Assembly: GCA_028820795.1 (NCBI GenBank)
Contig: JAPPHK010000309.1
Location: 1-41,343 of the forward strand
Length of the DNA: 41,343 nucleotides
Source of the DNA: Nitrospinota bacterium
Lineage (GTDB): Bacteria; UBA8248
Direction of reading: 5' to 3'
Each line of letters starts with the position of its first letter. Positions within the stretch are counted from its first letter, which is position 1. Below, piece after piece: positions 2,290-32,271 of the stretch. Below the pieces are notes generated by a model, which did no database searches, was not told the origin of the DNA, and saw nothing but the letters and a program-made list of their open reading frames with translations. Made by a program: the position numbers and the translations under genes.

Positions 2290-2893
2290 TAATCCGGGGG
2301 AATCAGACAGATAAAGTCAAAGACATTTACAAACGCGTCGGGAACATAGACTGTCTTCGTCGCCTGTGCAACATCATGCTGCCCGACGCTTTCGCTTGAT
2401 ATTTTGCTGTTCAAAATACGGGCTGTTTTTACTCGCTGAACATGCACGGGAGTGAACACGACTGTCGTCAGTCCCAAGTCTAGATTTGCTATGACCGATG
2501 CCAGCCGCGCAGTGGGCGAGACCCTGCGGTGCGATGACGCCAAGCTCCGCTAGATGTCCCCGCAACGCGTTGATTGCCTGGGTGCGCTGGCGAACTAGCA
2601 AATAGTGCGTGCGGAAAAGAATCCCCCTAGGCCTGCTACACTTCGATCTTCACCGCCACGGACTTCATGGTCGGGCTGGAGGCTACCTCGCAGATCGCTT
2701 CCGCATCCGAAGTGTCGTTCTTGTAGTATTTTATGGAGGGCTTCATGTAGACCGGTGGCACGAAATTCACCTCATGACGGAGTATTCCGATCTCGCGGCT
2801 CCAGTAGTATGCGCTCGCGCATGCGTCCATCCCATCGACAATAGCTCCGGCTGCTCTAGTATAACTGACCGCAGGAGTTGCAATCCGCATCAA
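2290..2893 (-). pseudogene. IS110-family transposase remnant (N-terminal and central part)
   Basis: Two stop-separated frames on the minus strand together match the RuvC-like DEDD region of IS110 transposases. 2636-2893 encodes GMDACASAYYW, VPPVYMKP and KNDTSDAEAICE; 2374-2620 encodes LFRTHYLLVRQRTQAINAL, then RGHLAELGVIAPQGLAH. A further frame shift is likely near 2520, since RLASVIANLDLGL continues in another frame. The start with the first catalytic aspartate and the whole C-terminal serine domain are missing. There are in-frame stops near 2635, so this is decayed. It lies between the ribbon-helix-helix gene and the end of the HsdMS-ATPase-HNH operon. Confidence 0.85.
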
Positions 2894-2896
2894 GCA

Positions 2897-3736
2897 TCAT
2901 ATAAAAACTCCCGCTAAATGATTTTCGTGTTTGAACCTATCTAGGTATGAAATACAAAAACTGGAGTAAAGAGAATCAACCCGCCTCATCTTTCTCAAAT
3001 TTGCGATTGCATACTCATAAATATCAACATGGAAAGAATCTCCAGAATCTAATTTCTGAAAAGCCTTCTTAGCAACCTTAATCAATTCCTTCATTTTATC
3101 TCGAAGAGCGATGCGGGATTTCACAAAATCAGTGTGGTTCAGATGATAATACTCAATCGATTTATCGGCTCTTGAATATGCTTTCTTGCTCTCATCCTCA
3201 CCAAACCTAGGCATTGCTTCGCCATCTTCCTTGAATACGATGAACCCAACATCTGCTGCTCGGCAGGGGTCAAGTAGTAAAGGTTCTTCTGCCGAACAGT
3301 CACTTTCAGGAAGCCATGCCCTCGTTGATTCATCCCAAAGTGGAAAATGATCTGCTTTCCCTCCAACGACATCCGTATTCAAATCTCGCCGGCGGCGGTT
3401 GGCTACAATACAGCTGTAACGGTAGTTTTCAGGGGAAAATGCAAGCCACCAATACCCAGGGTGCGGATTTTCTCTATCGCACAACTCAGCAATGCGCTTT
3501 TTGGGTCTATAGTGATCGACATCTACATCGGTCCCCTGTTGGGGAGATTCTGTGTACCAACATTTATCATGAAAGATTTCCCGTAACTGAGGTTTTATCT
3601 GGGCCCAAACGTTGCTGTTAGATTCAATGAGATTCGCTCTTTCGGTTTCGTTTTCCGCTTCGAGTAACTGTTGCTTTAGCAGATCGGTCTGTGAGGGCAT
3701 CTTAATTTTCTCTGGATCATAATCAACACACCTCAT
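2897..3736 (-). CDS. PtuB-like HNH endonuclease (Septu-like), last gene of the hsdMS operon
   Basis: This 279-residue protein starts at the ATG at 3736, with GAGGAG seven bases upstream; a longer frame begins at 3775 but overlaps the preceding gene needlessly. The HNH-type core is visible: HDKCWYTES (about 56-64), VDVDHYRPKKRI (71-82, DH at 74-75) and PGYWWLAFSPENYRYSCIVANR (93-114), the pattern of the nuclease partner (PtuB) in Septu defence and in retron-linked ATPase/HNH pairs. The remainder is helical. The start lies one base past the stop codon of the ATPase gene, the arrangement seen for ptuAB. In Septu the ATPase holds the HNH subunit in a complex that degrades DNA when triggered; that role here is inference from similarity and context. 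Confidence 0.85.
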   Translation of the reverse strand: MRCVDYDPEKIKMPSQTDLLKQQLLEAENETERANLIESNSNVWAQIKPQLREIFHDKCWYTESPQQGTDVDVDHYRPKKRIAELCDRENPHPGYWWLAFSPENYRYSCIVANRRRRDLNTDVVGGKADHFPLWDESTRAWLPESDCSAEEPLLLDPCRAADVGFIVFKEDGEAMPRFGEDESKKAYSRADKSIEYYHLNHTDFVKSRIALRDKMKELIKVAKKAFQKLDSGDSFHVDIYEYAIANLRKMRRVDSLYSSFCISYLDRFKHENHLAGVFI

Positions 3737-3737
3737 C

Positions 3738-5357
3738 TTAAGACTCCTCGAGTTTTTCTTTCTCAAGAAGTCCATGAACGATTTCTTGCGCTTTATCAGT
3801 CCGCCGCTTCAAAACGTCGGGCGTAGGTTCTTCTTCTTGAAATAGCTCGCTTTCGGCTTTGTGTCGGGCTTTCAGAAACTCCTGATAATCGTTATCCCAA
3901 TGGGCTGTGTTAAACCCAAGATATTCAATCGTCTGATCAAGTTCTTTCAGTTTGTTTTGCTCTGCTTGATTGAGTTTTTCTTTTTCGATTAATTTTCTGC
4001 GTTCACGGAGGAGGTTTTCTGTAGGGTTGTCAAGCGTGCCACGTAAGCCAAACATATCGCTGGTAAGAATACCAGCGTACCCCATACCACGTGGACTTTC
4101 GGCAGGAGCTTGAGCGTGTACTTGGCCCCCTCCATCTCTCCAAGTAACCTGCACTTGATTTTTCTCTAATTCAGCGATGGCAAGCGGATGGTGCGTCACC
4201 ATCAACAAATGGCAGACCTCTTTGTTGGGCACAAATTTTCGTAAAAATTGCAAATACTGGATTGCCCATAGTGGGTTAAGATGTGTATCCGGCTCATCCA
4301 ACAAGAAAAGAGAGTCCTTGCCGCCAGTAAACTTCAGTAATCCCAACACGGTCAACAATTGCTGCTCACCTTCGCTAAGTTCACGAAACCTCAGCGGTTC
4401 TTCACATGAACTAACACGGACACGTACACTCACTTCGGAGATGATCTCTGACAACAATGTGCTCTCCAACATCTTGAAGAACACATCTTGGGTCAATCCT
4501 TCGGCAAAGGTACGCAGCGCCTCAACATCTGGCAAAAATAGATGAATAAATTCGTTGGGTTTCCCTCTTCCGGTCAGGGATGTTTCTTCCTGGCGGGTAA
4601 TCTTCACTGGGGCTAACGCGTGAGGATAAATAGTGTCTAAAAAATCCCGGACGACACCTGACGCCCCCCAAAAAAGCTCGTTTTTCTTTCTTGCCCATCC
4701 TGGCTTACGCATTACAAAATGGATGGAATCCAATTCTTCAATACCAAGATGTTCGCGCAAGAATTCTTTTTCTTCGTCATCTTGAGCGCTTAGAAAAAAA
4801 GCCAGAAGAACAAACTGGCTGTGGAATGGCTTCGCATAAAAAAGTGGGCGAATATCAGCTTGTAAGTTGATTTGGCTATTCAGCATCTTTCGGTAAAAAT
4901 TATCCCGATGCCTTCGAAAATAACCTTCCAGTCGGTCACTTGGACCGGAGTAATATGCGAACAGGAAATTCGGAAGAAAGTGGGTTTCGCCCAGACTATT
5001 GCGTTTTACCTTCGAGAGCGGAATAGACTTACCTTGACCGGTGAACTCACCTCCGGGGTAATTCCCAGTCCTAATTCTGTATTGTTGTGCAAGCTTACTC
5101 CTACTTGGGTCCGCATCCACTACAACCCAGCGCACTTTTTCGTCATCGCCCAGCTTGTATTTGATCTCATAGGAAAATGGTGGCGGTTCACCTAAATCAA
5201 GGTTGCGAAAAATCGCAACTAGAGCTTCCAAGATATTTGATTTCCCTGACCCGTTTCGTCCAACGATAACAGTCATCAGGTTGTCTTGATCGAACTCAAT
5301 AGTGATATTTTCCAGATTCTTAAAACGCGAACGAATGCGCAAATAGTCAATTTTCAT
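3738..5357 (-). CDS. Restriction-system-associated AAA ATPase, PtuA-like
   Basis: A 539-residue SMC/ABC-type ATPase. Walker A is GRNGSGKS (33-40) close to the N-terminus, the ABC signature is LSEGEQQ (327-333), Walker B is FLLDEPDTHLNP (351-362) and the H-loop region is VTHHP (387-391). A charged, coiled-coil-like C-terminus (about 450-539) follows. This is the layout of PtuA-like/OLD-like ATPases, and I recall an annotation family described as restriction-system-associated AAA ATPases that sits beside type I methylase and specificity genes. It begins 10 bases after the hsdS stop and is followed almost immediately by the HNH nuclease gene, so all four genes form one operon. Expected role: nucleotide-dependent sensor and partner of the HNH subunit. 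Confidence 0.88.
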   Translation of the reverse strand: MKIDYLRIRSRFKNLENITIEFDQDNLMTVIVGRNGSGKSNILEALVAIFRNLDLGEPPPFSYEIKYKLGDDEKVRWVVVDADPSRSKLAQQYRIRTGNYPGGEFTGQGKSIPLSKVKRNSLGETHFLPNFLFAYYSGPSDRLEGYFRRHRDNFYRKMLNSQINLQADIRPLFYAKPFHSQFVLLAFFLSAQDDEEKEFLREHLGIEELDSIHFVMRKPGWARKKNELFWGASGVVRDFLDTIYPHALAPVKITRQEETSLTGRGKPNEFIHLFLPDVEALRTFAEGLTQDVFFKMLESTLLSEIISEVSVRVRVSSCEEPLRFRELSEGEQQLLTVLGLLKFTGGKDSLFLLDEPDTHLNPLWAIQYLQFLRKFVPNKEVCHLLMVTHHPLAIAELEKNQVQVTWRDGGGQVHAQAPAESPRGMGYAGILTSDMFGLRGTLDNPTENLLRERRKLIEKEKLNQAEQNKLKELDQTIEYLGFNTAHWDNDYQEFLKARHKAESELFQEEEPTPDVLKRRTDKAQEIVHGLLEKEKLEES

Positions 5358-5367
5358 TTGGTTCCTC

Positions 5368-7056
5368 TCATCTCGCTAACGCGAAGATGTCTTCCTCTCC
5401 CCTGCGGTTGCGTGTAATCGTCCCTCTTTTCAATTGTTCCCGAACTTCAAGAAAAAACAATTCCAATTGGTCCGTCGAAACGTCATTGGGATAGCCCGCT
5501 TGCGCCAACAAGTCTTGGGTGCTCAATGGAATGTTTGCCTGCTTTAAGGTATCCAAAACTGAGATCGTTCTGATTCGCCGTTTTTTCTGAGCCATCCTTT
5601 TACCCTCCATGCTCTTGCTTGTCTTTTTTAGATTTTCCCGTTCTTTTCTCCTCAACCGGATGTGCTCCAACAACATATTAGCGGGCTCGTCCGTCAAATC
5701 TTGCGACACTAACTCCCCCCTGAAAGCCTTCGCAAGGATGGAATTCTTAAGAATCGTATTCTTCCTGATCGCATCGTCTACCAAATGACGGACATTTTCG
5801 ATCACCGAAAAAAGATTTTTTATCCGATGAACAATTATTTTCTGCTCTTCTTTGGAACAAAGCGGCACTTCGAATGCGGCAAGTTTCTTGGCATTAATGT
5901 TAGATTGGTTGACGCCGTCACTTTTAACACGCCAACAATAGTCACGCCCCATTGGGCTGTTCAGACAGAATGCAAGAAATTCCGGATCCAACTCATTCAA
6001 GGTACGGATGCGGATTAGATAGCCAGCATAAATAGCAACGCGACCACCAAGATAAACGGCCGTTTTTCCAACCAACTCAGGGCTATTCGTTCGATTGAAC
6101 AGAACGTCTCCAAACGTAAGAGAATACTTCCCAATTTCAGTGGGGTCTGATGTGTACACCAGATTTGACCAATCAAGTTCTCCGTTTTGAATGTTCCCCA
6201 TCCGTAGCACAGGGACTTTACCTGATGAGCTTGATTTCTTAGATGAGCCATATTTGAAGGACGACGCAAGATTCTCCAACTTAATGTAAGCCCAGCTATT
6301 TGGAAGTAGGTCTGATGCTGTTTCTTCCGGGGCATTGGAAATAGCAGCAATTTTTATTGATTCTGAAGAGGACACAACGTTTTCGAGTTGTCGCATTTTG
6401 AGTTGGCGAACTACCTTCTCAATAGGCACCAAATTGTCCCTTGATTCACGCCAGTCGGCAGTTAGATCTCCACAAAAGGCGGCGAGGAGGACAGATTGAC
6501 GGTATTGATCGAGTAGCGCCGAAATGGCAACTAATGCTTCCTTTGTCCGCTGGCTTTGATCCAACAAAGCGTCAGTCTTTTTAACGATGCGATGTTGTTC
6601 GTTAATAGGAGGAAGAAGGATCTCAGTTTGTTCGAATTTTCCTTTAGTGATGTGACGAAGCCCCGCCCCACCATGCGCCTTGCCTATAAGTTCCTGAAGC
6701 TTCTGATTAATTGCATACCGTAGAAAACTCTTGTTAATCCAGTTTTCATCTACCTCGATTTTGAAAATATGTTGGTTAAGGACTGCTGGACCACCGTTCC
6801 AAATATGTGCGCCAAAAGACGTGCCAGGTGTTCCGGACCACGCAAAGAGTAAAGCACCATTATCTATTAGAAATTTTTCGGCAACTTCACCGTTAAAATA
6901 ATTATACGGGGCCCGTGGATTGTTAAGATTCTGAATCCTAACAATTGGCATCCCCTCTTCCACCCAGTCAGACGGTTTGAAAGCTTTACCGTTGATCAAA
7001 TGGCATACCAATCCTATCTCTGCGGACACCCAATTTTTTGGAAGCATCTCACTCAT
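5368..7056 (-). CDS. hsdS: Type I restriction-modification specificity subunit HsdS
   Basis: A 562-residue S subunit with two target recognition domains. TRD1 spans about 1-155 and ends in the conserved LPPINEQHRIVKK segment; a helical spacer follows (about 160-205); TRD2 begins near LPNSWAYIKLENL (about 251) and ends with VPLCSKEEQKIIVHRI; a second helical spacer follows. The last ~75 residues (from MAQKKRRIRTISVL) form an extra helical, lysine-rich domain that resembles a small winged-helix extension. The start overlaps the hsdM stop by four bases (ATGA). It should direct HsdM to a bipartite DNA site; the site cannot be read from sequence. No hsdR gene is present in the window. Confidence 0.95.
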   Translation of the reverse strand: MSEMLPKNWVSAEIGLVCHLINGKAFKPSDWVEEGMPIVRIQNLNNPRAPYNYFNGEVAEKFLIDNGALLFAWSGTPGTSFGAHIWNGGPAVLNQHIFKIEVDENWINKSFLRYAINQKLQELIGKAHGGAGLRHITKGKFEQTEILLPPINEQHRIVKKTDALLDQSQRTKEALVAISALLDQYRQSVLLAAFCGDLTADWRESRDNLVPIEKVVRQLKMRQLENVVSSSESIKIAAISNAPEETASDLLPNSWAYIKLENLASSFKYGSSKKSSSSGKVPVLRMGNIQNGELDWSNLVYTSDPTEIGKYSLTFGDVLFNRTNSPELVGKTAVYLGGRVAIYAGYLIRIRTLNELDPEFLAFCLNSPMGRDYCWRVKSDGVNQSNINAKKLAAFEVPLCSKEEQKIIVHRIKNLFSVIENVRHLVDDAIRKNTILKNSILAKAFRGELVSQDLTDEPANMLLEHIRLRRKERENLKKTSKSMEGKRMAQKKRRIRTISVLDTLKQANIPLSTQDLLAQAGYPNDVSTDQLELFFLEVREQLKRGTITRNRRGEEDIFALAR

Positions 7057-8480
7057 TCTGCTGTCTCGTTTGTATCTGAATACTTGGGTGTCAGTAAATC
7101 GCTGAGTGCATCCATTTCTTCCAATGCAGTGCGGAGATTTTCCATGACTTCCCGGGCGATGCTTTCAGGATCGGGAGGGTTTTCGGTGCCGCTGTTGCCA
7201 TCGTCCTTGAGCCAAGAGATGTCCAAGTTGTCTTTTCGCTTGGCGATGTATTTGCGGCTAAAGCAACGGAATCGCCCTTCCTCGCCCTCATCTTTCCGTT
7301 CGGCTGTGTTATGGGGGTCGTCACCGAATGCTTTTTCAAAAGGCTCAAGATGTTTCTCGCTCAGTGGATTGCGTTTGCCGAAAGAAGGCATATTTGTCCG
7401 CATGTCATAGACCCAGACGAATTTCGTGTTCTCCTTGTCCTGTTTTCCGCGGCTAAAGAACAGCACATTGGTCTTGATGCCCTGACTGTAAAAGATACCC
7501 GTAGGAAGTCGCAAGATGGTGTGGAGATTGCATTTTTCCATTAAGTCTTGGCGGATTTTCTTGCCTACGCCTTCTTCGAACAACGTATTATCCGGTAAAA
7601 CTACCGCGGCTCTCCCTCCTGGCTTGAGGCCAAGGTAAATATGCTGCAAGAACGCAAGTTGTTTATTGGTTGTCAAAAACGGGATGTCTTTGCGCCCGTC
7701 ACGAACGCTTCCGGCTTTCGCACCAAATGGTGGATTTGCCAAGATGAGGTCGGCAAGAACTAGGTCACGCGCATCTTCGGTTAGCGTGTCCCCCAAAATG
7801 ATGTCTGCATCCATTTGGTGTAAAAAAATATTCATCAAGCAAATACGGTGGGTGCTCTTTTCAATCTCCATACCTTGATATGATGGTGGGTTTGAGGCGT
7901 AAGCTTTATAATTGTTTGTGGTACGGAGGAAATGTTCTGCAGAAATCAAAAATCCTCCACTTCCTGCTGCCGGATCCTGTATTTCTTCGCCCAACTGAGG
8001 CTTTGTCAGCTTCACGATGCAATCAACTAAAGTCCGTGGCGTGAAATATTGCCCAGCACCTGAACGCGCATCCTGGGAATTCTTTGCGAGTAATCCCTCG
8101 TAAACTTCCCCGATTCCATCCTCTGTTACTGAATGCCAGTCGATCTTCGCAATTCCATTGATTACGGCTCGGAGGTTTTCTGAATGTGAAAAAACCGTTG
8201 TTGGAAAGGCGTATATCGCTCGTACTGCCTCAGATTTAGCGTATCCGCCTAGGCGTGTCAGCATCTCTTGGTAAAATGCCAAAAGCTTATCACCGTCGTA
8301 ATCTAAAAGATCTCGCCACCGGCAGCCTTTCAGTAACAGTTTTTCGGTTTCGTTTTCTTCAGCAATTTTAAGAAAAAGGAGGTATGTGAGTTCAGAAATA
8401 TACTCGTGATAGCTGATGCCATCACCGCGCAGTATATGGCAAAGATTCCAAACATTTTGGATGATATTTTCGTTGCTCAT
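7053..8480 (-). CDS. hsdM: Type I restriction-modification DNA adenine methyltransferase HsdM
   Basis: A 475-residue N6-adenine methyltransferase. The helical N-terminal HsdM domain (about 5-130) is followed by the SAM-binding motif DPAAGSGGF (169-177) and the catalytic NPPF (249-252), both intact. FTPRTLVDCIV precedes motif I as in other HsdM proteins. The start MSNENIIQNVWNLCHILRGD fits the family. Length is normal for the shorter HsdM class. It is the first gene of the operon hsdM-hsdS-ATPase-HNH. The ATG is only two bases after the stop of a degraded transposase frame on the same strand, so the native upstream promoter may have been replaced by insertion-sequence DNA. Confidence 0.96.
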   Translation of the reverse strand: MSNENIIQNVWNLCHILRGDGISYHEYISELTYLLFLKIAEENETEKLLLKGCRWRDLLDYDGDKLLAFYQEMLTRLGGYAKSEAVRAIYAFPTTVFSHSENLRAVINGIAKIDWHSVTEDGIGEVYEGLLAKNSQDARSGAGQYFTPRTLVDCIVKLTKPQLGEEIQDPAAGSGGFLISAEHFLRTTNNYKAYASNPPSYQGMEIEKSTHRICLMNIFLHQMDADIILGDTLTEDARDLVLADLILANPPFGAKAGSVRDGRKDIPFLTTNKQLAFLQHIYLGLKPGGRAAVVLPDNTLFEEGVGKKIRQDLMEKCNLHTILRLPTGIFYSQGIKTNVLFFSRGKQDKENTKFVWVYDMRTNMPSFGKRNPLSEKHLEPFEKAFGDDPHNTAERKDEGEEGRFRCFSRKYIAKRKDNLDISWLKDDGNSGTENPPDPESIAREVMENLRTALEEMDALSDLLTPKYSDTNETAE

Positions 8481-9981: not shown

Positions 9982-10335
9982 CTCGGCGCGACCGCTTTGG
10001 TGGCCGCGATGGGTGATCCCGCCGCATTCAGGTCCGGTCGGGAGTTTGCCGCTTGGCTGGGTCTGACGCCCCGGCACATCGGGACCAGCGGCAGGGAGCG
10101 CATGCTCAGAATCTCCAAGCGGGGCGACAGGTATCTGCGCACCTTGTTGATACACAGCGCCCGCGCCGCAAGCGTCCACAGCAAGGCGCCGCGCAAATGG
10201 GTATTGCGCCTGGCCGGACGACGGCCCCCGAAAGTGGTTGTCGTCGCTATGGCGAACAAGATGGCGCGCACGATCTGGGCCCTGCTGACCCATGACCGGG
10301 AATACCAACGAAACTTTATCGGCTATCCTGTGTGA
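9982..10335 (+). pseudogene. IS110-family transposase remnant (C-terminal domain)
   Basis: The frame opens after a stop at 9979-9981 and immediately shows the C-terminal (Transposase_20) domain of IS110 transposases: LGATALVAAMGDPAAFRSGR, EFAAWLGLTPRHIGTSGRER, ISKRGDRYLRTLLIHSARA and the final helix VVVAMANKMARTIWALLTH. In active IS110 elements this part carries the catalytic serine domain and follows an N-terminal DEDD domain, which is absent here. The fragment lies on the opposite strand from the N-terminal remnant at 2290-2893 and belongs either to another copy or to a rearranged one. Confidence 0.88.
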
Positions 10336-10724: not shown

Positions 10725-13700
10725 TTGCACGACCCCTTCTGCGAACTTCAATCAATATTACTTGAAGCGGACTCCGCTTGTCTTGAGCGTTTCGCAGCTC
10801 GTGCTCTCGGGTCTTTGCTCGGTGTACCCGTTCGGGTTGCCCGCTCCGGCGATCAGAGGGGTGGAGATGGGGGCACATCAAGCATCGGTAGTCGAGATAT
10901 CGTCTTCGAGGCGCGCCGCTATGGACATAAAACAAAGTTAGACGAGCGCAGCATTCTTGGAGAGATCGATCAAGCGACGAATCGGAGTCCCGATCTTGAG
11001 GCCTGGATTCTGGTGACTACTAGAATTGTTCCCGAACAAATCCAGGACACTATGGTCAGGAAAGGCCTCGAACTCGGGATCGGTACCCTTATTATTGACT
11101 GGCTACAACAGCCATTGCCCAAGCTTGCTGTCCTGGCTGCTAGTTGCCCGGAGTGTTTCCAAGCCGAAATCGGACACGGTCATGAACTTATTCTCGAACA
11201 AATAGCTGCTATGCCAAGTTACGCTCCCACATTAGAAAGTATTAAATCCGAGCTTAAGAGTTGGTTGATCGGTTACGAAGCGGTTCGAAAGGCAAGTCAT
11301 GCCTGGTTAGAGGGGATATGGAAGTCGAGGCGAAAGGCTACCGCCAGGTTCAGGCAGGATGTCGCTGGCGGTGAGGCAGAAGCGCATCACGTCCGGCGAT
11401 CGGATCTAATTGACCATCTGGACGCTTGGTTAGAAGCCTCCGCAGTAGACGAGATAGGGGCATTAGTCGGTCCCGAAGGTGTGGGCAAGACCTGGTTGGC
11501 AATCGATTGGTTGCAGTCGAGACTTGTTCGGTTACCGATAATCGTGCTCGCTCCCTCATCCACGATCGGAAATGGAATTACCAGTCGTACCGATCTAATC
11601 AGGTTTATCGCGCGCTATCTGCACGATATATCAGGAGTGCGCAACGAACCGTTCTGGGAACGACGGGTCCGTCGGTTGCTAGAGCGTCCTGCAGCAGAGG
11701 GGCCGGCTTTCATAATATTCTTTGACGGGCTCAATCAGGTCGCTTCATTCGATTGGCTCGGGGTTTTCAAACAACTACAGGACAATCTGTTTTACCAACG
11801 TGCACTGACCCTGATATCCGTACGTACGAGTTTCTACGAAGAAGGTCTGGACGGATTACGCGCTCCAGGCACACAATCAGCTCGGATCGATGTCGGCAAC
11901 TACGATATGGTGCCCGGAGGCGCCTTTGATCAGAAATTGAAAATGGTCGGCCTGTCCCGCGAGGAACTGTCCGATGAATTGATCAGACATGCGGTAGTGC
12001 CGCGACTGTTCGACTTGGTTGTTCAATTGAAAGACTCCCTTGGCGGCGTTTCCGCAGTGACCGTGAATCGTCTTCTCTGGGCCTACGGGGCATCAACCAT
12101 CAGTGTTTCGACGGATGGTGCGTTCAGCGAGAGCACTTGGCGAAATTTCATTCTCCAACTTGCTCAAGAGCATCGGGACGCCCATCGGAACTCCACGATT
12201 CAGCGCATCAAGGAATTGAGCGAAGATGCGACACTAGAGCCGGATCGAATTCATCAACGTGTCTCCGGCGTGATCGACGGCATCTTCACGGAACTCAGCG
12301 GAGACGGTGAACTCCGTTTCCACGAGGATTTCGTGTATCACGCTCTAGGCCTTGCTTTGGTTAAACGCATGGAGCAGATCGGGTCTGACGAAGACGCCAC
12401 AGCTGTTCTTGAACAATTTCTCGACCCCATCGCGAACTATGACGCCCGAGCTGAAACCCTTTGCGCTGCCATAAACATTTCACTTGATCGAAGCAGTCCC
12501 CAACAACCGAGATGGCTGAGTACGTTATGCACTTTCTGGATCCAGACACAGAATCTGCCCGACGAACATATAAAGGAGTTGGAAGTCCTCGCTCCGGAAC
12601 TTCTCACGCCACTGCTGGATGTGATCGAGTCGTCGGGTAGTCATGTACTAAGTACGCCAAGGTATATTGCGGTCAATGCACTTAGCAAAGTCAAGAAGAG
12701 CGACGGGCTTGTTGCACGGAAGATCGCTGAACGCGGGGCGCGGTGGCACAGGTTCATTTCCCTTGAAAATCACGGGAGCGACACCGATCAGGGGGAAAAC
12801 TCTCCATATGGCCACCGCTGCAAACGCCTCAAGGAGCGTATAGGCACCGCCGAGGCCGGAGAAGTGACCGTTGCAGGGCGGGTTTTCGAGATCGTGGAAT
12901 ACAGAGGCGATGATCTCATTATCGCGGCAGCGCAGCTTCTCCAGGGACGCCCTCTGGCTGACACCACCGAATTCTTTTTAACAGGCGCAATTCATCAAGC
13001 GATCGTCGGCGGTGGAACGGAACACGAATCCCAATCCTGGCTGAACGTTCTCAATACGGTCGATCCTGAGAAGACGGCAGAAAGATTAAGGAATGCAGCG
13101 GAAATGGTGCGTGACCGCACACCCGAACCCGGGGTTCATGGCTACCTCAACAAGCGGATTGCGTCGCTTCTGCTTTGGCGAACCGGCTATGCGGAAGATG
13201 CCGAAAAGGCATGGAAAACTGACCCGAAGATCGACCACTGGTTCAGCTACGAGACGGACTACCTGGATAATCCTTCGCGTTCTTTTTACTTCCAGCTTGA
13301 ACGGCGACACACCGCACAGGCACTTCGGGACATCGGCCTCCCCATCATTCGCAGGATCGAGCGGGCGAAGGACGCGTTGCTGGATCCGAGTTTTGAAATT
13401 CCTCCGGAATTCATTGATGAATTGATCTCGACCGGCGAAGGGTTTGATTTCTCCCAAACGGCCACCGGACGTAATCGTACGCGTCACGATCTTGATTGGG
13501 AGCGACTCTCTCTCGCACTGGCACGTTGCGCACCCGGGAAACTTGCGGAACTCGAACGCAAACGCCTGCTTGGTTTTTCTGACCGGCCTGAGAATCAGCG
13601 GTTTGGCGCGTCTCTCGTCGTGCCTGGCGCCATGCTTCTCGTGCGAAAAAACGAGAGCGCAGCCCTGTATACATTACGAAAGCGCGGGAGTAGCGGACAG

Positions 13701-15389
13701 GGCAGCGCCGAGTATACGGCCAAGACCAACTTGCTAATCTCGGAAATTCAATGCAAATCCCCGGGGGCGCAAGTGCGAAGGATAATGGAATCGGGACTCG
13801 AACAAATCGATTTGCATTTGGCCAACGCCTGTGATCCACCTAGTGAGCGTGAGATAGGTCTCCTTCTAGACGAGTATGGCGATAATCAAGAGAAATCAAG
13901 GCGCCTTGCCAGTATCCTCGGTGCTCATAATCTGACCTTGAGCGATCGGGTTTTTGATATCTTCTTCAAGCTATTAAAACCCGGGGATGCCGATGTCGCA
14001 TCGGGGGCGGTCTGGGTGGTTCTGGCGTTCAACGAACCGGTGCGCCTGGGCGCCATACTCGATAACGTCGACTGGGCTTGGTCGCTTGAAAGGCACGTCA
14101 TGGAAAACCATATGGGATCGGTTGCGATTGCTGCATCTGCATCGAACCGGGATGCCCCGTTTATGGAATATGCGCACAGGATCGCTCCAGCCAAGCTACT
14201 CAAGACATTGTCACAAGAAGAACGGTCGCGTGAAGACGTGGAACTTGCGGTCGAATTGTTGACCGGAGTTCTCTTCGGCGATTCCATAGATCCGCCGGAA
14301 CCCGGCGTTGCAATTTTCCACGAACAGGAAAAAGTCGAAATAAAAGGCTACGAATGCACTATTGGGGGTGTTTTGAAGGAAGGCGATAATCGGGATGATA
14401 TCGTGCGATTCCTTGAAAAATTCAATTCGCCCGAAAAGCATGAGAAAAGGCGGCGCGAGATTGTCGAGGCCTATTTTCGTGAGGTCAAGGAAGCGAGACG
14501 ATCTGGCGCTCAACTCTATCGCGTACATTTCACGGCGGAGAATTTCGAACCCGTTTTGAAACATTGCCCTCATGCCGTAGAAACGTGGCTGGAAGGTCTC
14601 GAATCATCGTCGTCGGATTTCATAAGACGCGTTCGATTGGCTGAAGGCTTTTTCGTTGCCCTTTGCGAAGCGCTTTTGAGGGAAGACCCAACACGCGGCA
14701 TAGCTCTGTGGCGAGTCCTGAGGGAGCACTTGATTACCGGATTCATCGGTCGCGCCGACATTGACAGATTGGTGTATGCCCTGTTTACAGCACAACCCTG
14801 TGGAGATGTGAACACCGTACTGGAGGAAATTTACTGCATCGACGAAGCTCGAAACGATGATGATCTAATGGATTTGGTCATCGCGGCTCGTTTGTCGGGT
14901 CGAGTGGACTGGTTGCGACAAATGTTGAGCCGTGACGCGGAGTCTTCCTGTCCGCTACATCGGCAAAGAGCAACCTTCCTGGAACCGCTGTTGGTCCGGC
15001 CTGATATCGCCGGAGACGAAGATTGGCCGGAGGGTGAGGCCGCCAGCGTATTCGACAACATTCGCGAGGAGTCCTGGAAGCTGGCTCAACGTGAGGCTTT
15101 TGCCGCTTATTGGCTAAGGAAATTTGCCGAAGCGAACACGGTCGAGACCGCCCATGCATACTGGCGTCTGTTCAAGGCTTGCGCTGACAGGCGCGCATGG
15201 ATTTGGATGATGAGTATTTACAAGTCGCACACAACGCGGGATGAGCTATTGGAAGCGGTCAAGCAAAAATTCATTAAGCAAGAAGAACACAATCTGAAGA
15301 ATGCGATAGAAGAGAACGAAAAATCCTGGTCCAACAATTTTGCGTGGCGTAGATACCCAAACACTCTAAGGCCATGGAGGTCGGGATAG
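10725..15389 (+). CDS. Large STAND NTPase with N-terminal PD-(D/E)XK-like domain (Avs-like)
   Basis: A 1554-residue protein. The TTG at 10725 is chosen because GAAAGG lies at good spacing, an in-frame stop occurs at 10710-10712 and the first internal Met is near residue 110. Residues 20-130 look like a restriction-endonuclease fold: GDQRGGDGG (42-50), then RDIVFEARRY (57-66), then ILVTTR and TLIIDWL. The usual E-x-K reads E-A-R here, so catalysis may be lost or altered. The NTPase core has Walker A GPEGVGKT (249-256), Walker B FIIFFDGLNQ (329-338) and a sensor-like ISVRTSF (364-370). The remaining ~1100 residues are helical and repeat-like, the region that senses phage proteins in Avs (AVAST) defence proteins. 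It stands alone as a transcription unit. Function is inferred from architecture. Confidence 0.75.
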   Translation: MHDPFCELQSILLEADSACLERFAARALGSLLGVPVRVARSGDQRGGDGGTSSIGSRDIVFEARRYGHKTKLDERSILGEIDQATNRSPDLEAWILVTTRIVPEQIQDTMVRKGLELGIGTLIIDWLQQPLPKLAVLAASCPECFQAEIGHGHELILEQIAAMPSYAPTLESIKSELKSWLIGYEAVRKASHAWLEGIWKSRRKATARFRQDVAGGEAEAHHVRRSDLIDHLDAWLEASAVDEIGALVGPEGVGKTWLAIDWLQSRLVRLPIIVLAPSSTIGNGITSRTDLIRFIARYLHDISGVRNEPFWERRVRRLLERPAAEGPAFIIFFDGLNQVASFDWLGVFKQLQDNLFYQRALTLISVRTSFYEEGLDGLRAPGTQSARIDVGNYDMVPGGAFDQKLKMVGLSREELSDELIRHAVVPRLFDLVVQLKDSLGGVSAVTVNRLLWAYGASTISVSTDGAFSESTWRNFILQLAQEHRDAHRNSTIQRIKELSEDATLEPDRIHQRVSGVIDGIFTELSGDGELRFHEDFVYHALGLALVKRMEQIGSDEDATAVLEQFLDPIANYDARAETLCAAINISLDRSSPQQPRWLSTLCTFWIQTQNLPDEHIKELEVLAPELLTPLLDVIESSGSHVLSTPRYIAVNALSKVKKSDGLVARKIAERGARWHRFISLENHGSDTDQGENSPYGHRCKRLKERIGTAEAGEVTVAGRVFEIVEYRGDDLIIAAAQLLQGRPLADTTEFFLTGAIHQAIVGGGTEHESQSWLNVLNTVDPEKTAERLRNAAEMVRDRTPEPGVHGYLNKRIASLLLWRTGYAEDAEKAWKTDPKIDHWFSYETDYLDNPSRSFYFQLERRHTAQALRDIGLPIIRRIERAKDALLDPSFEIPPEFIDELISTGEGFDFSQTATGRNRTRHDLDWERLSLALARCAPGKLAELERKRLLGFSDRPENQRFGASLVVPGAMLLVRKNESAALYTLRKRGSSGQGSAEYTAKTNLLISEIQCKSPGAQVRRIMESGLEQIDLHLANACDPPSEREIGLLLDEYGDNQEKSRRLASILGAHNLTLSDRVFDIFFKLLKPGDADVASGAVWVVLAFNEPVRLGAILDNVDWAWSLERHVMENHMGSVAIAASASNRDAPFMEYAHRIAPAKLLKTLSQEERSREDVELAVELLTGVLFGDSIDPPEPGVAIFHEQEKVEIKGYECTIGGVLKEGDNRDDIVRFLEKFNSPEKHEKRRREIVEAYFREVKEARRSGAQLYRVHFTAENFEPVLKHCPHAVETWLEGLESSSSDFIRRVRLAEGFFVALCEALLREDPTRGIALWRVLREHLITGFIGRADIDRLVYALFTAQPCGDVNTVLEEIYCIDEARNDDDLMDLVIAARLSGRVDWLRQMLSRDAESSCPLHRQRATFLEPLLVRPDIAGDEDWPEGEAASVFDNIREESWKLAQREAFAAYWLRKFAEANTVETAHAYWRLFKACADRRAWIWMMSIYKSHTTRDELLEAVKQKFIKQEEHNLKNAIEENEKSWSNNFAWRRYPNTLRPWRSG

Positions 15390-17194: not shown

Positions 17195-18055
17195 TCAAAT
17201 CGCGAAACGTTCGATCATATCTGGGGTCCTTGCCCAGTCCTCGCCCGGGATGAGGTCGATCAGTTCCCGCAAGACCCGCCTGAACGCTTCCTTCGTGGAG
17301 TCTTCGTCCAGGGTCTCGGCGTGCTCGACCGAAACCAGGGGCCGCATGTCCGTAAGAAAAGCTGGATTCGCGAGTTTCGCGAACATTCTTTGCTGCGCTT
17401 CGGCGCGGGAAATACGCAGCCCCGATGCTTCAAGATAGAACACGAGACCTTCCACGACCCGCGCCCTGTCCAATCCTTTGAGCGTGCGCAGCCCGTGATA
17501 GAGATCGAACAGGTCGCGCCCCTTGTTTCTCTGAAGAAGCGCCCGGAGTTTCGTCGCGAAGATTTCCTCAATCGAGAACGTCGCTATGTCCGCCGCCCCG
17601 CTGAACCATGGGTTTTCCACCGCGAACGGAATGGAGACCGGCGGATCGAACGCCTTGATTTCCCGTGTATTGATTTCGATTTTCAGGCGGATCGGGGCGC
17701 CGACGGACGGGTCTTCCGCATCGACCTTGAAACGGAGTTTGGGAGCCGTAGCGCTCGGGGCGAAACCAGCCCGTCCCAGCCATGGTTCGAGAGTTTCCCG
17801 GATGGCATCGAGAACCGGGCCGATCGGTCCGGTCTCGGTCCTGACAAGGTCGATGTCTTCCGAATAGCGAAGGGGTTGAGGAAAATGGAGCTTGTTAAGC
17901 GCCGTTCCGCCGCGAAAGCGCAGCTGTCCGGCCAGTCCGGGATTGGAAAACAGCTCTACGAGCGCGCGGCTGATGACAAGGTCCTGTTCGACCTGGCGCA
18001 GATCCGCCCAGGGGACGACATTCCCCCATGCGATGATGTTCATCCGGGGGATCAT
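17195..18055 (-). CDS. abiEii: AbiEii toxin, nucleotidyltransferase
   Basis: A 286-residue AbiEii/AbiGii nucleotidyltransferase. The catalytic signature is intact: FRGGTALNKLHF (47-58) and RYSEDIDLV (63-71, aspartates 67 and 69), with a third acidic strand at LKIEINTRE (124-132). SIEEIFATKLRALLQRNKGRDLFDLYH further on is the conserved helical segment of the family. AbiEii is the toxin of type IV toxin-antitoxin pairs that abort phage infection; related MenT toxins transfer nucleotides to tRNA acceptor ends. The start codon overlaps the antitoxin stop by four bases (ATGA), with GAGGT upstream. Confidence 0.95.
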   Translation of the reverse strand: MIPRMNIIAWGNVVPWADLRQVEQDLVISRALVELFSNPGLAGQLRFRGGTALNKLHFPQPLRYSEDIDLVRTETGPIGPVLDAIRETLEPWLGRAGFAPSATAPKLRFKVDAEDPSVGAPIRLKIEINTREIKAFDPPVSIPFAVENPWFSGAADIATFSIEEIFATKLRALLQRNKGRDLFDLYHGLRTLKGLDRARVVEGLVFYLEASGLRISRAEAQQRMFAKLANPAFLTDMRPLVSVEHAETLDEDSTKEAFRRVLRELIDLIPGEDWARTPDMIERFAI

Positions 18056-18879
18056 TCGTCGACCTCAGGCAAACGACGGACGATGACGCGCCAGTGTTCG
18101 TCACGTTCCAGCGGGGGTGGCATGAATTCGGGGTCGCGGGTCTCCTTGCGGTCGAGTTCGACCCACGGAAATGCGCCGCGGCCGGACAGCGCGTCGAACA
18201 TCGGTCCGGTTCGGTCCCCGTGCCCGAGGCGGTCCAGCAGATAACCGAGACGCTGCACGATTGAGCGCTCCGCCGCGGATGAAAGCCGCGCCAGTTCCTG
18301 CGAACCGAGTTTCGGGCCGAGATCGGCAAGGACGGTGACGAGGTTGTCGATGCCCCCTGCGGCATGGGAATAGCGCACAAGGTCCAGTGCCGTGAGTTCG
18401 ACGGACGACACTCTCATCGTGCCCGTATCGGTCTTGCGGTTTTCCACGCCGTCCGATACGGTTTTCATATCTTTTCGGTAATGAAAAGCGATCCGGGTTC
18501 TGCCGGCGTGGATTCCGGGCAGCCGTTTGTCCGTGACAACGGGAAACTCCATAACGGCATGATGGGTAGCGCCATGCAGTTCGGCCGCCTTGAGGAGAGC
18601 GACATAATACGGCCGCCCTTCGTGCCGCATCAGGTCATCGATATACCAGCCCGGAGGCGGAGCGCCCCAGGATGCGTACCGGGGAGGAACCACCACATAG
18701 AACCCATTCCGCAGCCTGACGAGATGCCTGCGGCGCTGGAGCCGTTCGGCGGCGTCGAGAAACGCGCCTCGTCCGATTCCCAGCGCCTGCTCCGCCTCGT
18801 CTGCCGAAAAGACTACGCGGCCCTCTGACAGCAGGCCGGAAGTATAGGATGACAATGTTTTTCGTTGGGCATGTATCAT
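18052..18879 (-). CDS. abiEi: AbiEi antitoxin, winged-helix regulator
   Basis: A 275-residue AbiEi-type protein. The N-terminal winged helix is visible at about 10-60 (VVFSADEAEQALGIGRGAFL, then AERLQRRRHLVRLRNGFYVV), followed by the AbiEi antitoxin domain with GWYIDDLM, YYVALLKAAELHGATHH and FPVVTDKRLPGIHAG. AbiEi proteins counteract AbiEii and repress their own promoter by binding inverted repeats through the winged helix. Two inverted repeats lie directly upstream here. It is the first gene of the two-gene operon and translationally coupled to the toxin. Confidence 0.9.
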   Translation of the reverse strand: MIHAQRKTLSSYTSGLLSEGRVVFSADEAEQALGIGRGAFLDAAERLQRRRHLVRLRNGFYVVVPPRYASWGAPPPGWYIDDLMRHEGRPYYVALLKAAELHGATHHAVMEFPVVTDKRLPGIHAGRTRIAFHYRKDMKTVSDGVENRKTDTGTMRVSSVELTALDLVRYSHAAGGIDNLVTVLADLGPKLGSQELARLSSAAERSIVQRLGYLLDRLGHGDRTGPMFDALSGRGAFPWVELDRKETRDPEFMPPPLERDEHWRVIVRRLPEVDE

Positions 18880-21384: not shown

Positions 21385-22653
21385 CTATCCGCCTGACCCC
21401 GTTCCTTCTGGCCTATCGCTACGGAGATGTCCTCGCAGTATGAACGCATCTGGAGGTGTCCCATCGAGCCGAATGACATTCCAGCCGGACCAGGTAACTT
21501 CGTCGAAGTTCATGTCCGTCAACCGTGTGGAGACTATGGTTTGGAATCTGCACTCAGCTGAACCTAGAACTTCCGCATAGCGCTTCAGCCAATCAGTGTC
21601 AATCCGCCAGGAATCAGCATCGAGAATCAAAAGAGTCGGTCTGGTAATGGATAGTTTGGTGGCCGTTATGATTCCGAGCTCCAACATGAGCTTCTCGCAC
21701 TCTGAACTGGCCAATAGCCGTAGCAGCCTGGATTCAATCTGATTGGCGGCTTGCACTTCAACATGCATGTAAACGCCTTCGTCGGTCTCCTCGAAGCGTG
21801 CTCCTTTGAAAAAATCGCTTTTATTGGCTAACTCGTCGCAAATCGCTTGAAGTTCGTACGGGTGCAGTTTCATTGAGTCGGACACAATATCGCGATCATT
21901 GCGCATTTCCTGAAACCGGTGCTCTATGCTTACGGGGAAAATAACCTTTATGGTATCGGTCGACAAAAACGTTTGCTCTCCATCCAACTTGTATCGAGGG
22001 TATTTTGGACATAGAAAATCAACCTCAATCCGGTGCGGGTCTGGGTTATAGTAATCAACTCTGTAAGACAACCGCTTCAGAGAGTCTCGAGTTAATGTTT
22101 CCCATCTTTCCAGATAAGCGGGATTGGAGATTCCAGCAATCCATTCACATAGTGCTGTCTTTCCAACACTGTTCTCACCGACAATTAGATTCAGTTTGGC
22201 GAATTCTATTTCTAAGTCATCAGAAAAAAGGGGCGATGAATGGAGCGTGAATTTATTTATCCATCCGAAAGGTGTGTGAATTCCCGCTTGCTCATGCGCT
22301 ATTCGTGTTTCGTGCAATGCCTTGTAACTATGCAAAGTTTCAGGTGGATATTCCTTGCCTCTGTTCTTGTCAATCAAGCTTGCACAATGGCCACACAACC
22401 AGATAGCGTTTTGCGGGGATTTTAATTCGTCGTAGCTAAGTCCTCCGGTACCACGTGGTCCACCTCCTGAAATGGCAGCGCCATAGATATGGGCAGCGAT
22501 TCCTGTGATTAATGGTTTTTGCGGATCCTCAGCTGGCCCTACCGTTGTTCGATTACAACCTGGGAAACTGCATCTATAACCGGCCCTTTGTGCAGTGAGT
22601 TCTCTTGTCTTCAGAGAAAAATCCGCTCTTTTGTGTTGCTTGTCATCAGTCAT
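21385..22653 (-). CDS. Single-chain HNH nuclease-ATPase
   Basis: A 422-residue protein combining two domains. Residues 20-115 form a zinc-type HNH nuclease: C28 and C33 in YRCSFPGC, AAHIYGAA (53-60, H55), and SPQNAIWLCGHCASLIDKN (79-97; N82, C87, C90). Residues 130-400 form an SMC/OLD-like ATPase: NLIVGENSVGKTALCEWIAG (155-174, Walker A at 159-166) and PTLLILDAD (339-347, Walker B). The ATPase is short and its ABC signature is not obvious. The pairing repeats the Septu logic (ATPase plus HNH) but in one chain with the nuclease first. The ribosome binding site is weak (AGAG). No partner overlaps it; a HEPN-like gene lies about 320 bases upstream on the same strand. Confidence 0.8.
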   Translation of the reverse strand: MTDDKQHKRADFSLKTRELTAQRAGYRCSFPGCNRTTVGPAEDPQKPLITGIAAHIYGAAISGGGPRGTGGLSYDELKSPQNAIWLCGHCASLIDKNRGKEYPPETLHSYKALHETRIAHEQAGIHTPFGWINKFTLHSSPLFSDDLEIEFAKLNLIVGENSVGKTALCEWIAGISNPAYLERWETLTRDSLKRLSYRVDYYNPDPHRIEVDFLCPKYPRYKLDGEQTFLSTDTIKVIFPVSIEHRFQEMRNDRDIVSDSMKLHPYELQAICDELANKSDFFKGARFEETDEGVYMHVEVQAANQIESRLLRLLASSECEKLMLELGIITATKLSITRPTLLILDADSWRIDTDWLKRYAEVLGSAECRFQTIVSTRLTDMNFDEVTWSGWNVIRLDGTPPDAFILRGHLRSDRPEGTGSGG

Positions 22654-30060: not shown

Positions 30061-32271
30061 ATGGCTCGATTGAAAATCGCCGCTACCATCCTAGCTGCTG
30101 CCGAAAAATGGAAACAGCGCTGCCTGCTCGAGGACGGCTCGCTCTTTTCCGAACAACGGCTCTGGACCAGGGAAAACTTCGGGGAACTTCAAACCTGCTT
30201 CGTCGAGCGTCCCGATGAGGGAAGCGATTCTTTCGCGGAGAAGCTGCGGCGCCAGCTCGACCCCGCGCCACCGGAAGCGAAGCGTCTGTGGGCGGAGATG
30301 ACGTGGGTGTATTACCTGATCGCAAGTTCCGTAAAACGGGTAACGAAGCTCGACAGGATCAGGACGGTCTGGGAGTGGTCGGGAGCGGCGCTTCCTGAAG
30401 ATCACTGGGCGTTGGGCGAAGTTCTGGACGGAGGGATGGTCAATCCAGGCATGGCCTATTTGAATCACCAGTGGCGTGAGTTCAGGTTCATCATCACCAT
30501 GATGCTGGACTGGAACTCCCGTTCCGCAAGGGAACGGGAGACACTGCTGAACGATCCCTGGGGTTTCGCGGAATGGGTTGACGGGCAGGAAGACAGCCAC
30601 CGACGTCAATTCCGCCATGCCCTGTTGTTCCTTCTGTTCCCGGGCGAGTTCGAGTCCATCGTATCGCGACGCCACAAGAAGGACATCGTCAAGGCTTTTC
30701 GAGAGGAAATCGGTGAAACATACGATGTCGACCGCATGAATCTTACCGAACTCGACAGGGCGTTACTTGCGGTAAGGAGACGCCTCGAAGGCGAGCATCC
30801 CGGGAAAGAAATATATTTCTATGAGCCATCCTTGAGGGAGCGTTGGGACGACGACGATTCGACGACGCCGGGCAATAACGGTCAAATTGAAAAGACCGAT
30901 CATAAGACATGGTTCCAGAAGCGTTTCGGTATGGCGGACGTGTGGGCCATCGCGCCGGGTGAGGGCGCTCGCTTGTGGAGGGATTTCCAGGAACATGGCA
31001 TCGCGGCAATCGGATACGACGAACTAGGAGATCTCAGTGATTACGATTCCAAAGACGCCATCCACAGTGCGTTAATAGAGAACGGCGCATTGCAAAACCC
31101 GATCAACCATTCGCTTGCCGTGTGGGAATTCGTGCATGAGATTAAGAACGGGGATATTCTCATCGCCAAGAGAGGGCGTAAGACTATACTCGCATGGGGG
31201 GAGGTCACCGGAGATTACACATACGAGCCCGAGCGGCCTGAGTACCGCAACCTCCGGAAAGTCGAGTGGCATCCGTGCCGTTCACCGATCAACCTCGAGG
31301 ACCCGATCACCACCAAGACGCTGACTCGATTCACCTCTTACAAGAATTGGTTGCGGGATGTCTTCAAATTGATCGATGAACCGCCAGAAAACGGGCCCGA
31401 TGGGAAACAACCCTATGACATTCCCGCCGCAATCGTTGACTTGTTCTTGGAGGAAACGCAGTTCCGTCGCATTCTCGACTCCATAGCGCTTCGCAAGAAC
31501 CTGATTCTTCAGGGGCCGCCGGGGGTCGGCAAAACCTTCATCGCCCGGCGGATCGCATGGTGCCTGATGGGTCGCAAAGACTCGCGACCCATCGAGATGG
31601 TGCAGTTCCATCAGTCCTATGCGTACGAGGACTTCGTGCAGGGCTGGAGGCCGACTGAAACCGGTGGCTTCAGGTTGCGCAATGGTGTGTTTTACGAGTT
31701 CTGCAAACGCGCGGAACAACAGCCAGATACGCCTTTCGTCTTCATCATCGACGAGATCAACCGGGGCAATCTCTCAAGGATATTCGGGGAACTGCTCATG
31801 CTCATCGAAGCGGACAAGCGTGGCCCCGGGCACGCTATCGCGCTGACATACGGCGCGCCCGGAGAACGCTTCAGCGTTCCTGAAAACGTACATGTACTGG
31901 GACTCATGAACACCGCTGACCGTTCTCTGGCGATAGTGGACTACGCGCTTCGCCGCCGGTTTGCGTTCGAGACGCTCAAGCCCGCGTACGGCACCGGGAA
32001 ATTCCGGGAATACCTGCTGGAAGCGGAAGTCGACAAGGACCTCGTGGACCGGATCGACCGCAACCTGTCGGCGCTCAACGAGCGCATCCGTGACGACAAG
32101 GACCTCGGTCCCGGCTTCCAGATCGGACACAGCTATTTCGTGCCCGAGGGATCGGCAGACGAGCAGTGGTACCTGAGCATCGTCGATACCCAGATTGCGC
32201 CGTTGCTGCGAGAGTATTGGTTCGACCGTCCCGAGCAGGTGGATAAACTGGTCGAGGATTTGAGGCGGTGA
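30061..32271 (+). CDS. mcrB: McrB-like 5-methylcytosine-specific restriction GTPase subunit
   Basis: A 736-residue protein starting at an ATG preceded by AAGGGGGC. Three regions are visible: an N-terminal ~260-residue helical domain of unknown type (WTRENFGELQT, DDGSTTP linker near 265-275); an EVE/PUA-like base-reading domain at about 290-410 (VWAIAPGEGARLWRDF, AAIGYDELGDLSDY, GDILIAKRGRKTILAWGEV); and the McrB AAA+ domain with Walker A GPPGVGKT (485-492), FIIDEINRGN (561-570), the GTP-specificity motif MNTADRS (616-622) and RRRF (631-634). McrB recognises modified DNA and assembles with McrC into a GTP-driven translocating nuclease. The stop overlaps the mcrC start by three bases. Confidence 0.95.
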   Translation: MARLKIAATILAAAEKWKQRCLLEDGSLFSEQRLWTRENFGELQTCFVERPDEGSDSFAEKLRRQLDPAPPEAKRLWAEMTWVYYLIASSVKRVTKLDRIRTVWEWSGAALPEDHWALGEVLDGGMVNPGMAYLNHQWREFRFIITMMLDWNSRSARERETLLNDPWGFAEWVDGQEDSHRRQFRHALLFLLFPGEFESIVSRRHKKDIVKAFREEIGETYDVDRMNLTELDRALLAVRRRLEGEHPGKEIYFYEPSLRERWDDDDSTTPGNNGQIEKTDHKTWFQKRFGMADVWAIAPGEGARLWRDFQEHGIAAIGYDELGDLSDYDSKDAIHSALIENGALQNPINHSLAVWEFVHEIKNGDILIAKRGRKTILAWGEVTGDYTYEPERPEYRNLRKVEWHPCRSPINLEDPITTKTLTRFTSYKNWLRDVFKLIDEPPENGPDGKQPYDIPAAIVDLFLEETQFRRILDSIALRKNLILQGPPGVGKTFIARRIAWCLMGRKDSRPIEMVQFHQSYAYEDFVQGWRPTETGGFRLRNGVFYEFCKRAEQQPDTPFVFIIDEINRGNLSRIFGELLMLIEADKRGPGHAIALTYGAPGERFSVPENVHVLGLMNTADRSLAIVDYALRRRFAFETLKPAYGTGKFREYLLEAEVDKDLVDRIDRNLSALNERIRDDKDLGPGFQIGHSYFVPEGSADEQWYLSIVDTQIAPLLREYWFDRPEQVDKLVEDLRR

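Follow-up and report, generated by a model that had tools for sequence, protein, structure and literature searches.

What does a type I methyltransferase that lacks its restriction subunit do in one operon with a Septu-like ATPase and nuclease? This question is raised by a four-gene unit, hsdM-hsdS-ptuA-ptuB, in a stretch of 41,343 nucleotides (the window) from contig JAPPHK010000309.1 (assembly GCA_028820795.1) of a Nitrospinota bacterium. Under present annotation, such loci are read as two separate systems, type I restriction-modification (R-M) and Septu. An original prediction, made from the window's letters, had proposed a type I-guided Septu but overlooked a C-terminal winged-helix tail on HsdS, which in our analysis provides the strongest evidence for a wiring between the methyltransferase and the ATPase/nuclease pair. 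If this tail docks PtuA, the two systems would be a single machine, PtuAB would have a third kind of sensor, after none in Septu and a reverse transcriptase with multicopy single-stranded DNA (msDNA) in retrons, and a set of 'orphan' HsdMS methyltransferases would acquire a defence function. We consider it an even call that in this unit a type I methyltransferase (HsdM2S) holds a PtuA/PtuB effector.

The layout that the original prediction had described, with its short overlaps and gaps and its intact motifs, was confirmed by open reading frame calls, Pfam and motif inspection. All four genes lie on the minus strand in the order hsdM-hsdS-ATPase-HNH with intact reading frames; hsdM and hsdS overlap by 4 bases, and gaps of 10 bases and 1 base separate hsdS from the ATPase gene and the ATPase gene from the HNH gene, respectively:

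7053..8480 (-), hsdM, type I N6-adenine methyltransferase subunit, 475 amino acids (aa); N6_Mtase 2e-74, HsdM_N; PADLOC MTase_I PDLC03026, 639 bits
7725-7736 (-), NPPF motif of HsdM
5368..7056 (-), hsdS, 562 aa, two target-recognition domains and a C-terminal extension; Methylase_S 2e-32, in two stretches
5371..5598 (-), predicted C-terminal winged-helix tail of HsdS, residues 487-562 (structured about 500-560), proposed PtuA adaptor
3738..5357 (-), PtuA-like ABC/SMC-type ATPase, 539 aa; AAA_21/AAA_15/SMC_N; PADLOC PtuA1 PDLC00293, 675 bits
5235..5261 (-), Walker A of the ATPase, GRNGSGKSN
4362..4376 (-), ABC signature of the ATPase, SEGEQ
4290..4310 (-), Walker B of the ATPase, LFLLDEP
2897..3736 (-), PtuB-like HNH nuclease, 279 aa; PADLOC PtuB1 PDLC00330, 289 bits
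3512-3514, 3425-3427 and 3398-3400 (-), HNH residues H75, N104 and N113

The Septu-like nature of the pair was likewise upheld. The PtuA match covers 535 of the 539 residues of the ATPase, whose sequence resembles solved PtuA chains weakly yet significantly, and the predicted structure of the HNH protein (predicted local distance difference test score, pLDDT, 95) has confident PDB matches solely to PtuB chains, from Septu and from type I-A retrons (Ec78, Ec83). For the nuclease, an alternative in-frame ATG lies at 3775; the start at 3736 is preferred, as homologues start MR..D.

Relatives of the ATPase were collected by an alignment-based scan of 84,980 species genomes, which yielded 454 stretches; the best 80 loci of the 454 were taken, plasmid and viral loci were added, and 91 related loci were compared. 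Single-sequence scans of genome and viral contigs had returned zero relatives where the alignment scan succeeded, and no relative of the unit was found in the phage records searched. The Walker A, signature, Walker B and H-loop of the ATPase, D74-H75/N104/N113 of the HNH protein and NPPF of HsdM are all intact in the window; across 83 relatives these motifs are invariant, save for D74, replaced by E in 4, and the catalytic residues are equally kept with and without HsdR. Apart from these residues, the CxxC-type cysteine pairs of PtuB (KCWYCE...CxxCN in some relatives) read KCWYTE...CIVAN in the window's subgroup, around residues 59 and 109, where a zinc site may have been lost.

The HsdS tail and its link to PtuA

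EcoKI HsdS stops at its second conserved region, whereas every PtuA-linked HsdS that we examined runs on for ~60-100 residues. This extension contains a domain of ~65 residues for which there is no Pfam family and whose predicted fold is a winged helix (pLDDT 89). Its third helix, preceded by a basic linker, is acidic, with a mean charge of -2.2 and a net positive charge in just 2 of 83 tails, and is in its sequence unlike a DNA binder. Among the many winged helices that Foldseek returned for the tail, the C-terminal domain of the kleisin ScpA on an SMC head stood near the top (template modelling score 0.73 by target, root-mean-square deviation 1.9 Å), and RAD21-C on SMC1A appeared lower in the list. 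Because PtuA itself is an ABC/SMC-type head, this likeness is suggestive, though no stronger than that.

The tail is also tightly confined to its genetic context. In 39 whole genomes, a tail profile gave one strong match each (1e-10 to 1e-26), always in the HsdS ahead of ptuA; the roughly 45 other HsdS proteins of the same genomes (counted by hand; some of them longer) had no match. A few weak extra matches fell in open reading frames of about 100 aa; the one inspected was IHF-alpha and was dismissed as a chance similarity. On plasmids, a close search with the tail matched two records only, both with a close ptuA.

In support of a functional link, pairwise distances of the tail followed those of the ATPase across 83 loci (r 0.88). 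The partial correlation of the tail with the ATPase given HsdM was 0.81, as against 0.12 with HsdM given the ATPase, while the HsdS core displayed the reverse pattern (0.18 with the ATPase and 0.50 with HsdM); HsdM and HsdR distances correlated at 0.97. A further hint comes from Enterobacter kpr-6, which carries an EcoKI-type system whose R and M subunits are 89% and 93% identical to those of K-12 and whose HsdS conserved regions are almost identical. Here, HsdS extends into the tail precisely where EcoKI HsdS ends, and ptuAB follows. To judge from these alignments, the tail was gained by HsdS, with HsdM and HsdR little altered. Since the unit also occurs in complete Escherichia coli genomes, this EcoKI-like graft means that laboratory strains allow direct testing.

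Conservation of the unit and the place of hsdR

A lack of conserved ATPase/HNH neighbours next to hsdMS would have counted against the original prediction, but these neighbours are conserved: hsdS-ptuA-ptuB is contiguous and on the same strand in essentially all of the 91 loci not cut by contig ends, with hsdM beside it. Scored with custom profiles and written with R, M, S, A and B for hsdR, hsdM, hsdS, ptuA and ptuB, the architectures were M-S-A-B (32), R-M-S-A-B (22, plus three near variants), R-S-A-B-M (22) and S-A-B-M (6), the remaining loci being cut by contig ends or incomplete. The hosts include Pseudomonadota, Actinomycetota, Chloroflexota, Acidobacteriota, Fibrobacterota and others. 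Absence of hsdR, taken in the original prediction as the defining trait, was not borne out as such, since hsdR lies beside the unit in about half of the loci; on the ATPase tree its presence or absence requires 21 changes, of which well supported branches force 13. Because hsdR is also present in so many loci, type I methyltransferases carry PtuAB as an accessory, with hsdR optional, and not as a substitute for HsdR. In a Kordiimonadaceae metagenome-assembled genome (locus L039, 8535-9996), hsdS is in two frames ahead of ptuA, where a frameshift, an assembly error or phase variation is possible. Fic/DOC family genes adjoin the unit in several carriers, namely a Vibrio vulnificus plasmid, E. 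coli ET490 and E. coli OW1E2 (L007, L144, L147).

The hsdR-less units are real. Within the window, searches by tblastn with 57 HsdR sequences found neither hsdR nor an hsdR relic, including upstream of hsdM, in agreement with the original prediction. PF04313 (HSDR_N) alone missed HsdR in 4 of 30 positive-control genomes, and an HsdR alignment was therefore added as a second search, which recovered such controls at ~850 to 1000 bits. In the window's own genome, whose assembly is 79% complete, this alignment found no HsdR of the kind used by PtuAB-linked systems above 103 bits. Two hsdR genes of the HSDR_N family (contigs C12 and C296) each have their own distant M and S on the same contig, and an R-like protein of 850 aa on contig C87 shares that contig with its own 691-aa M; each was rejected as a partner in trans. 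Contig C87, which carries another type I-like system (L112, L113), is a mirror image of itself with identical genes and matches from both ends, probably an assembly artefact.

Among 38 genomes with an hsdR-less locus in a first pass, 14 were without any HSDR_N protein genome-wide. The HsdR alignment was also run on 35 of the 38, and 12 were negative by both tests, including seven isolates: Rhizobium redzepovicii, Mesorhizobium B2-4-15, Stappia TSB10P1A, Pseudomonas fluorescens H24, Enterobacter asburiae TN152, P. lini and Acinetobacter nosocomialis. An hsdR for the same specificity elsewhere in the genome, which the original prediction had named as a finding that would count against it, was thus not detected as a family-type HsdR in the incomplete own genome or in those of 12 relatives. 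At least one apparently hsdR-less locus (L029) has its hsdR farther upstream, outside the flank examined. In E. coli, the ptuAB query matched 10 of 5,426 genomes, one match being just 56 bases long. OW1E2 (mutS-flhA site) and NCTC11121 (yicC-dinD site) carry the four-gene unit on hsdR-free islands that are seen from integrase to core genes. As the HsdM of the E. coli carriers is just 51-53% identical to EcoKI HsdM, EcoKI HsdR is an unlikely partner in trans on sequence grounds.

For the window itself, the hsdR-less state may be secondary, because insertion sequence fragments flank the operon, its closest relatives have hsdR and its genome is 79% complete:

9997..10335 (+), C-terminal part of an IS110 transposase, upstream of hsdM; could mark a boundary or the scar of a deletion, at the usual place of hsdR
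2374..2601 (-), weak IS110 transposase fragment (E 0.0055) downstream of the HNH gene

On this account, which is compatible with either mechanism discussed below, the window would hold a decayed R-M-S-A-B unit that lost hsdR via IS110, and the R-less state would carry no functional meaning here. It draws on the fragments on both sides, on the hsdR upstream in the three closest relatives (L012, L013, L014) and on the incomplete assembly; however, the four reading frames are intact with their catalytic residues kept, and R-less units also persist in other lineages, for instance on complete E. coli chromosomes. We hold decay to be doubtful.

A candidate mechanism and its rivals

In the scheme that we favour, HsdMS would methylate a bipartite host site, as expected of its family, while the winged helix of HsdS would dock the PtuA ATPase and, via PtuA, the PtuB nuclease. 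By analogy with PrrC/EcoprrI and retron Ec78, PtuAB would stay silent as long as HsdMS is undamaged and its sites carry their methylation; inactivation of HsdMS by a phage, or an encounter of HsdMS with unmodified DNA, would release or activate PtuAB via the tail. Active PtuAB would then cleave nucleic acid, with tRNA likelier than DNA to judge from characterised PtuAB, and thereby halt infection, while HsdR would be an optional extra supplying ordinary restriction. PrrC is kept silent by its linked type I enzyme and is turned on when a phage anti-restriction peptide neutralises that enzyme (PMC2610378); the PtuAB of Septu EcB88 cleaves tRNA-Tyr (PMC13096335), and that of retron-Eco7 degrades the same tRNA (PMC11555353). 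HsdS probably docks PtuAB through its tail, as predicted here, and, given docking, guard or alarm control of PtuAB appears reasonably likely. More tentatively, and short of an even expectation, the kleisin-like tail could be a dedicated PtuAB adaptor, and R-less members could sense infection with the methyltransferase itself, a form of type I-derived immunity without HsdR. That HsdR is also there in half of the loci speaks more for an alarm or backup function than for replacement of HsdR, although replacement may still hold for R-less members.

Several observations weigh against this scheme. No Foldseek match of the tail fell under E 0.001, and winged helices are common. With PtuA accounted for, PtuB distances add nothing to tail distances (-0.08), and the signal loses its selectivity in the 27 loci where hsdM follows hsdS (tail with ATPase given HsdM 0.44; tail with HsdM given ATPase 0.56). 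Tail and ptuA are adjacent in the DNA, so part of their correlation is linkage, and co-inheritance as a single cassette could yield it without contact. Such co-transfer would also suit a purely genetic association, in which PtuAB is a Septu in its own right that moves together with hsdMS as part of a defence island, while the tail is a passenger without effect or helps in DNA binding; defence genes do cluster and nest within one another, and the window is a defence island. We find this improbable, however, given a gene order that is fixed and near-fused across phyla with and without hsdR, a tail confined to ptuA-linked HsdS, and the acidity of its third helix.

The final point against the favoured scheme is a report, cited in PMC11555353, that the target of the Septu of ATCC 25922 is nicked DNA. 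It would accord with PtuAB as an alternative restriction module, in which HsdMS on an unmethylated site loads PtuAB and PtuAB cuts that DNA, as in the type I-guided Septu of the original prediction. R-less units recur with all catalytic residues kept, the tail would place PtuA on DNA-bound HsdS, and, with the HsdM NPPF kept, self-marking probably persists. Yet HsdR, in one case EcoKI-type, is present in about half of the loci, which would make a second restriction subunit redundant, and the characterised PtuAB of retron-Eco7 and Septu EcB88 cuts tRNA. We regard this restriction role as rather unlikely. Of the original proposal, the Septu-like pair, the synteny and the R-less units stand, whereas PtuAB in place of HsdR is not general and restriction is one of two live readings.

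Relation to known systems and neighbouring genes

Compared with Septu type I, the unit has a homologous ATPase and HNH nuclease in the same order, ptuA-ptuB, with motifs intact in both; unlike the stand-alone two-gene system, the pair was never seen by itself in this clade and has hsdS directly upstream in essentially all untruncated relatives, and this hsdS bears a special C-terminal domain. The type I-A retrons (Ec78/Eco7; Septu type II in PADLOC) likewise join a PtuA/PtuB effector to a separate sensor, which is a reverse transcriptase with msDNA in the retron as opposed to HsdM/HsdS here; Pfam detected no reverse transcriptase among the four operon proteins. PrrC-EcoprrI, and with it RloC, shares an effector with an ABC-ATPase encoded within a type I R-M operon, and probably the guard logic. 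PrrC is, however, a single protein with a C-terminal anticodon-nuclease domain linked to a complete type Ic enzyme, in contrast to two proteins, a separate PtuB-type HNH nuclease, an HsdS tail and an optional HsdR. The RRDM island of enteropathogenic E. coli (DarTG2 inside type I R-M) also embeds an effector module in a type I operon, with a toxin-antitoxin effector and a complete R-M (PMC12255303). As a type I R-M system, the window's operon has HsdM and HsdS but lacks HsdR. MADS similarly combines a type I-like methyltransferase, an S subunit and an ATPase within one defence operon; membership was rejected, as the scores for MAD2 (87.6 against 720 bits), MAD5 (44.6 against 400) and MAD3 (22.8 against 420) are all far under the NCBIfam cut-offs, and the window's operon has four genes including the PtuB-type HNH.

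The top NCBIfam match of the ATPase was TIGR04435 (restriction system-associated AAA family ATPase), an R-M-linked family without an assigned function, at 134 bits, far under its 300-bit cut-off. That such ATPases are associated with restriction loci is already known, by name in the case of TIGR04435. Nuclease-paired OLD-ABC ATPases in R-M-like systems have been reported before, according to a 2026 paper; its remark probably goes back to work by Krishnan et al. in 2020 on ABC ATPases, where the association may be described. Within the literature that our full-text search covered, we found no described hsdMS-PtuAB system, HsdS winged-helix tail, restriction of such a tail to ptuA-linked HsdS, or R-optional family.

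Apart from the operon, the window holds other defence genes and candidates:

17195-18055 (-), AbiEii toxin, and 18052-18879 (-), AbiEi antitoxin; Pfam 9e-38 and 5e-27
30061-32271 (+) and 32268-33308 (+), McrB/McrC type IV restriction pair; McrB has ~450 residues ahead of its AAA domain; in NCBIfam, McrC scores 339 bits, slightly over its cut-off, and McrB 322 bits, under its own
10725-15389 (+), protein of 1554 aa that includes a STAND-like NTPase region and whose N-terminus looks Mrr-like by eye; without a match in PADLOC; candidate unnamed defence protein
21385-22653 (-), protein of 422 aa whose N-terminal region resembles CBASS endonuclease effectors and which also has the P-loop region of an ABC-ATPase (PADLOC PDC-M68A, 1.5e-20)

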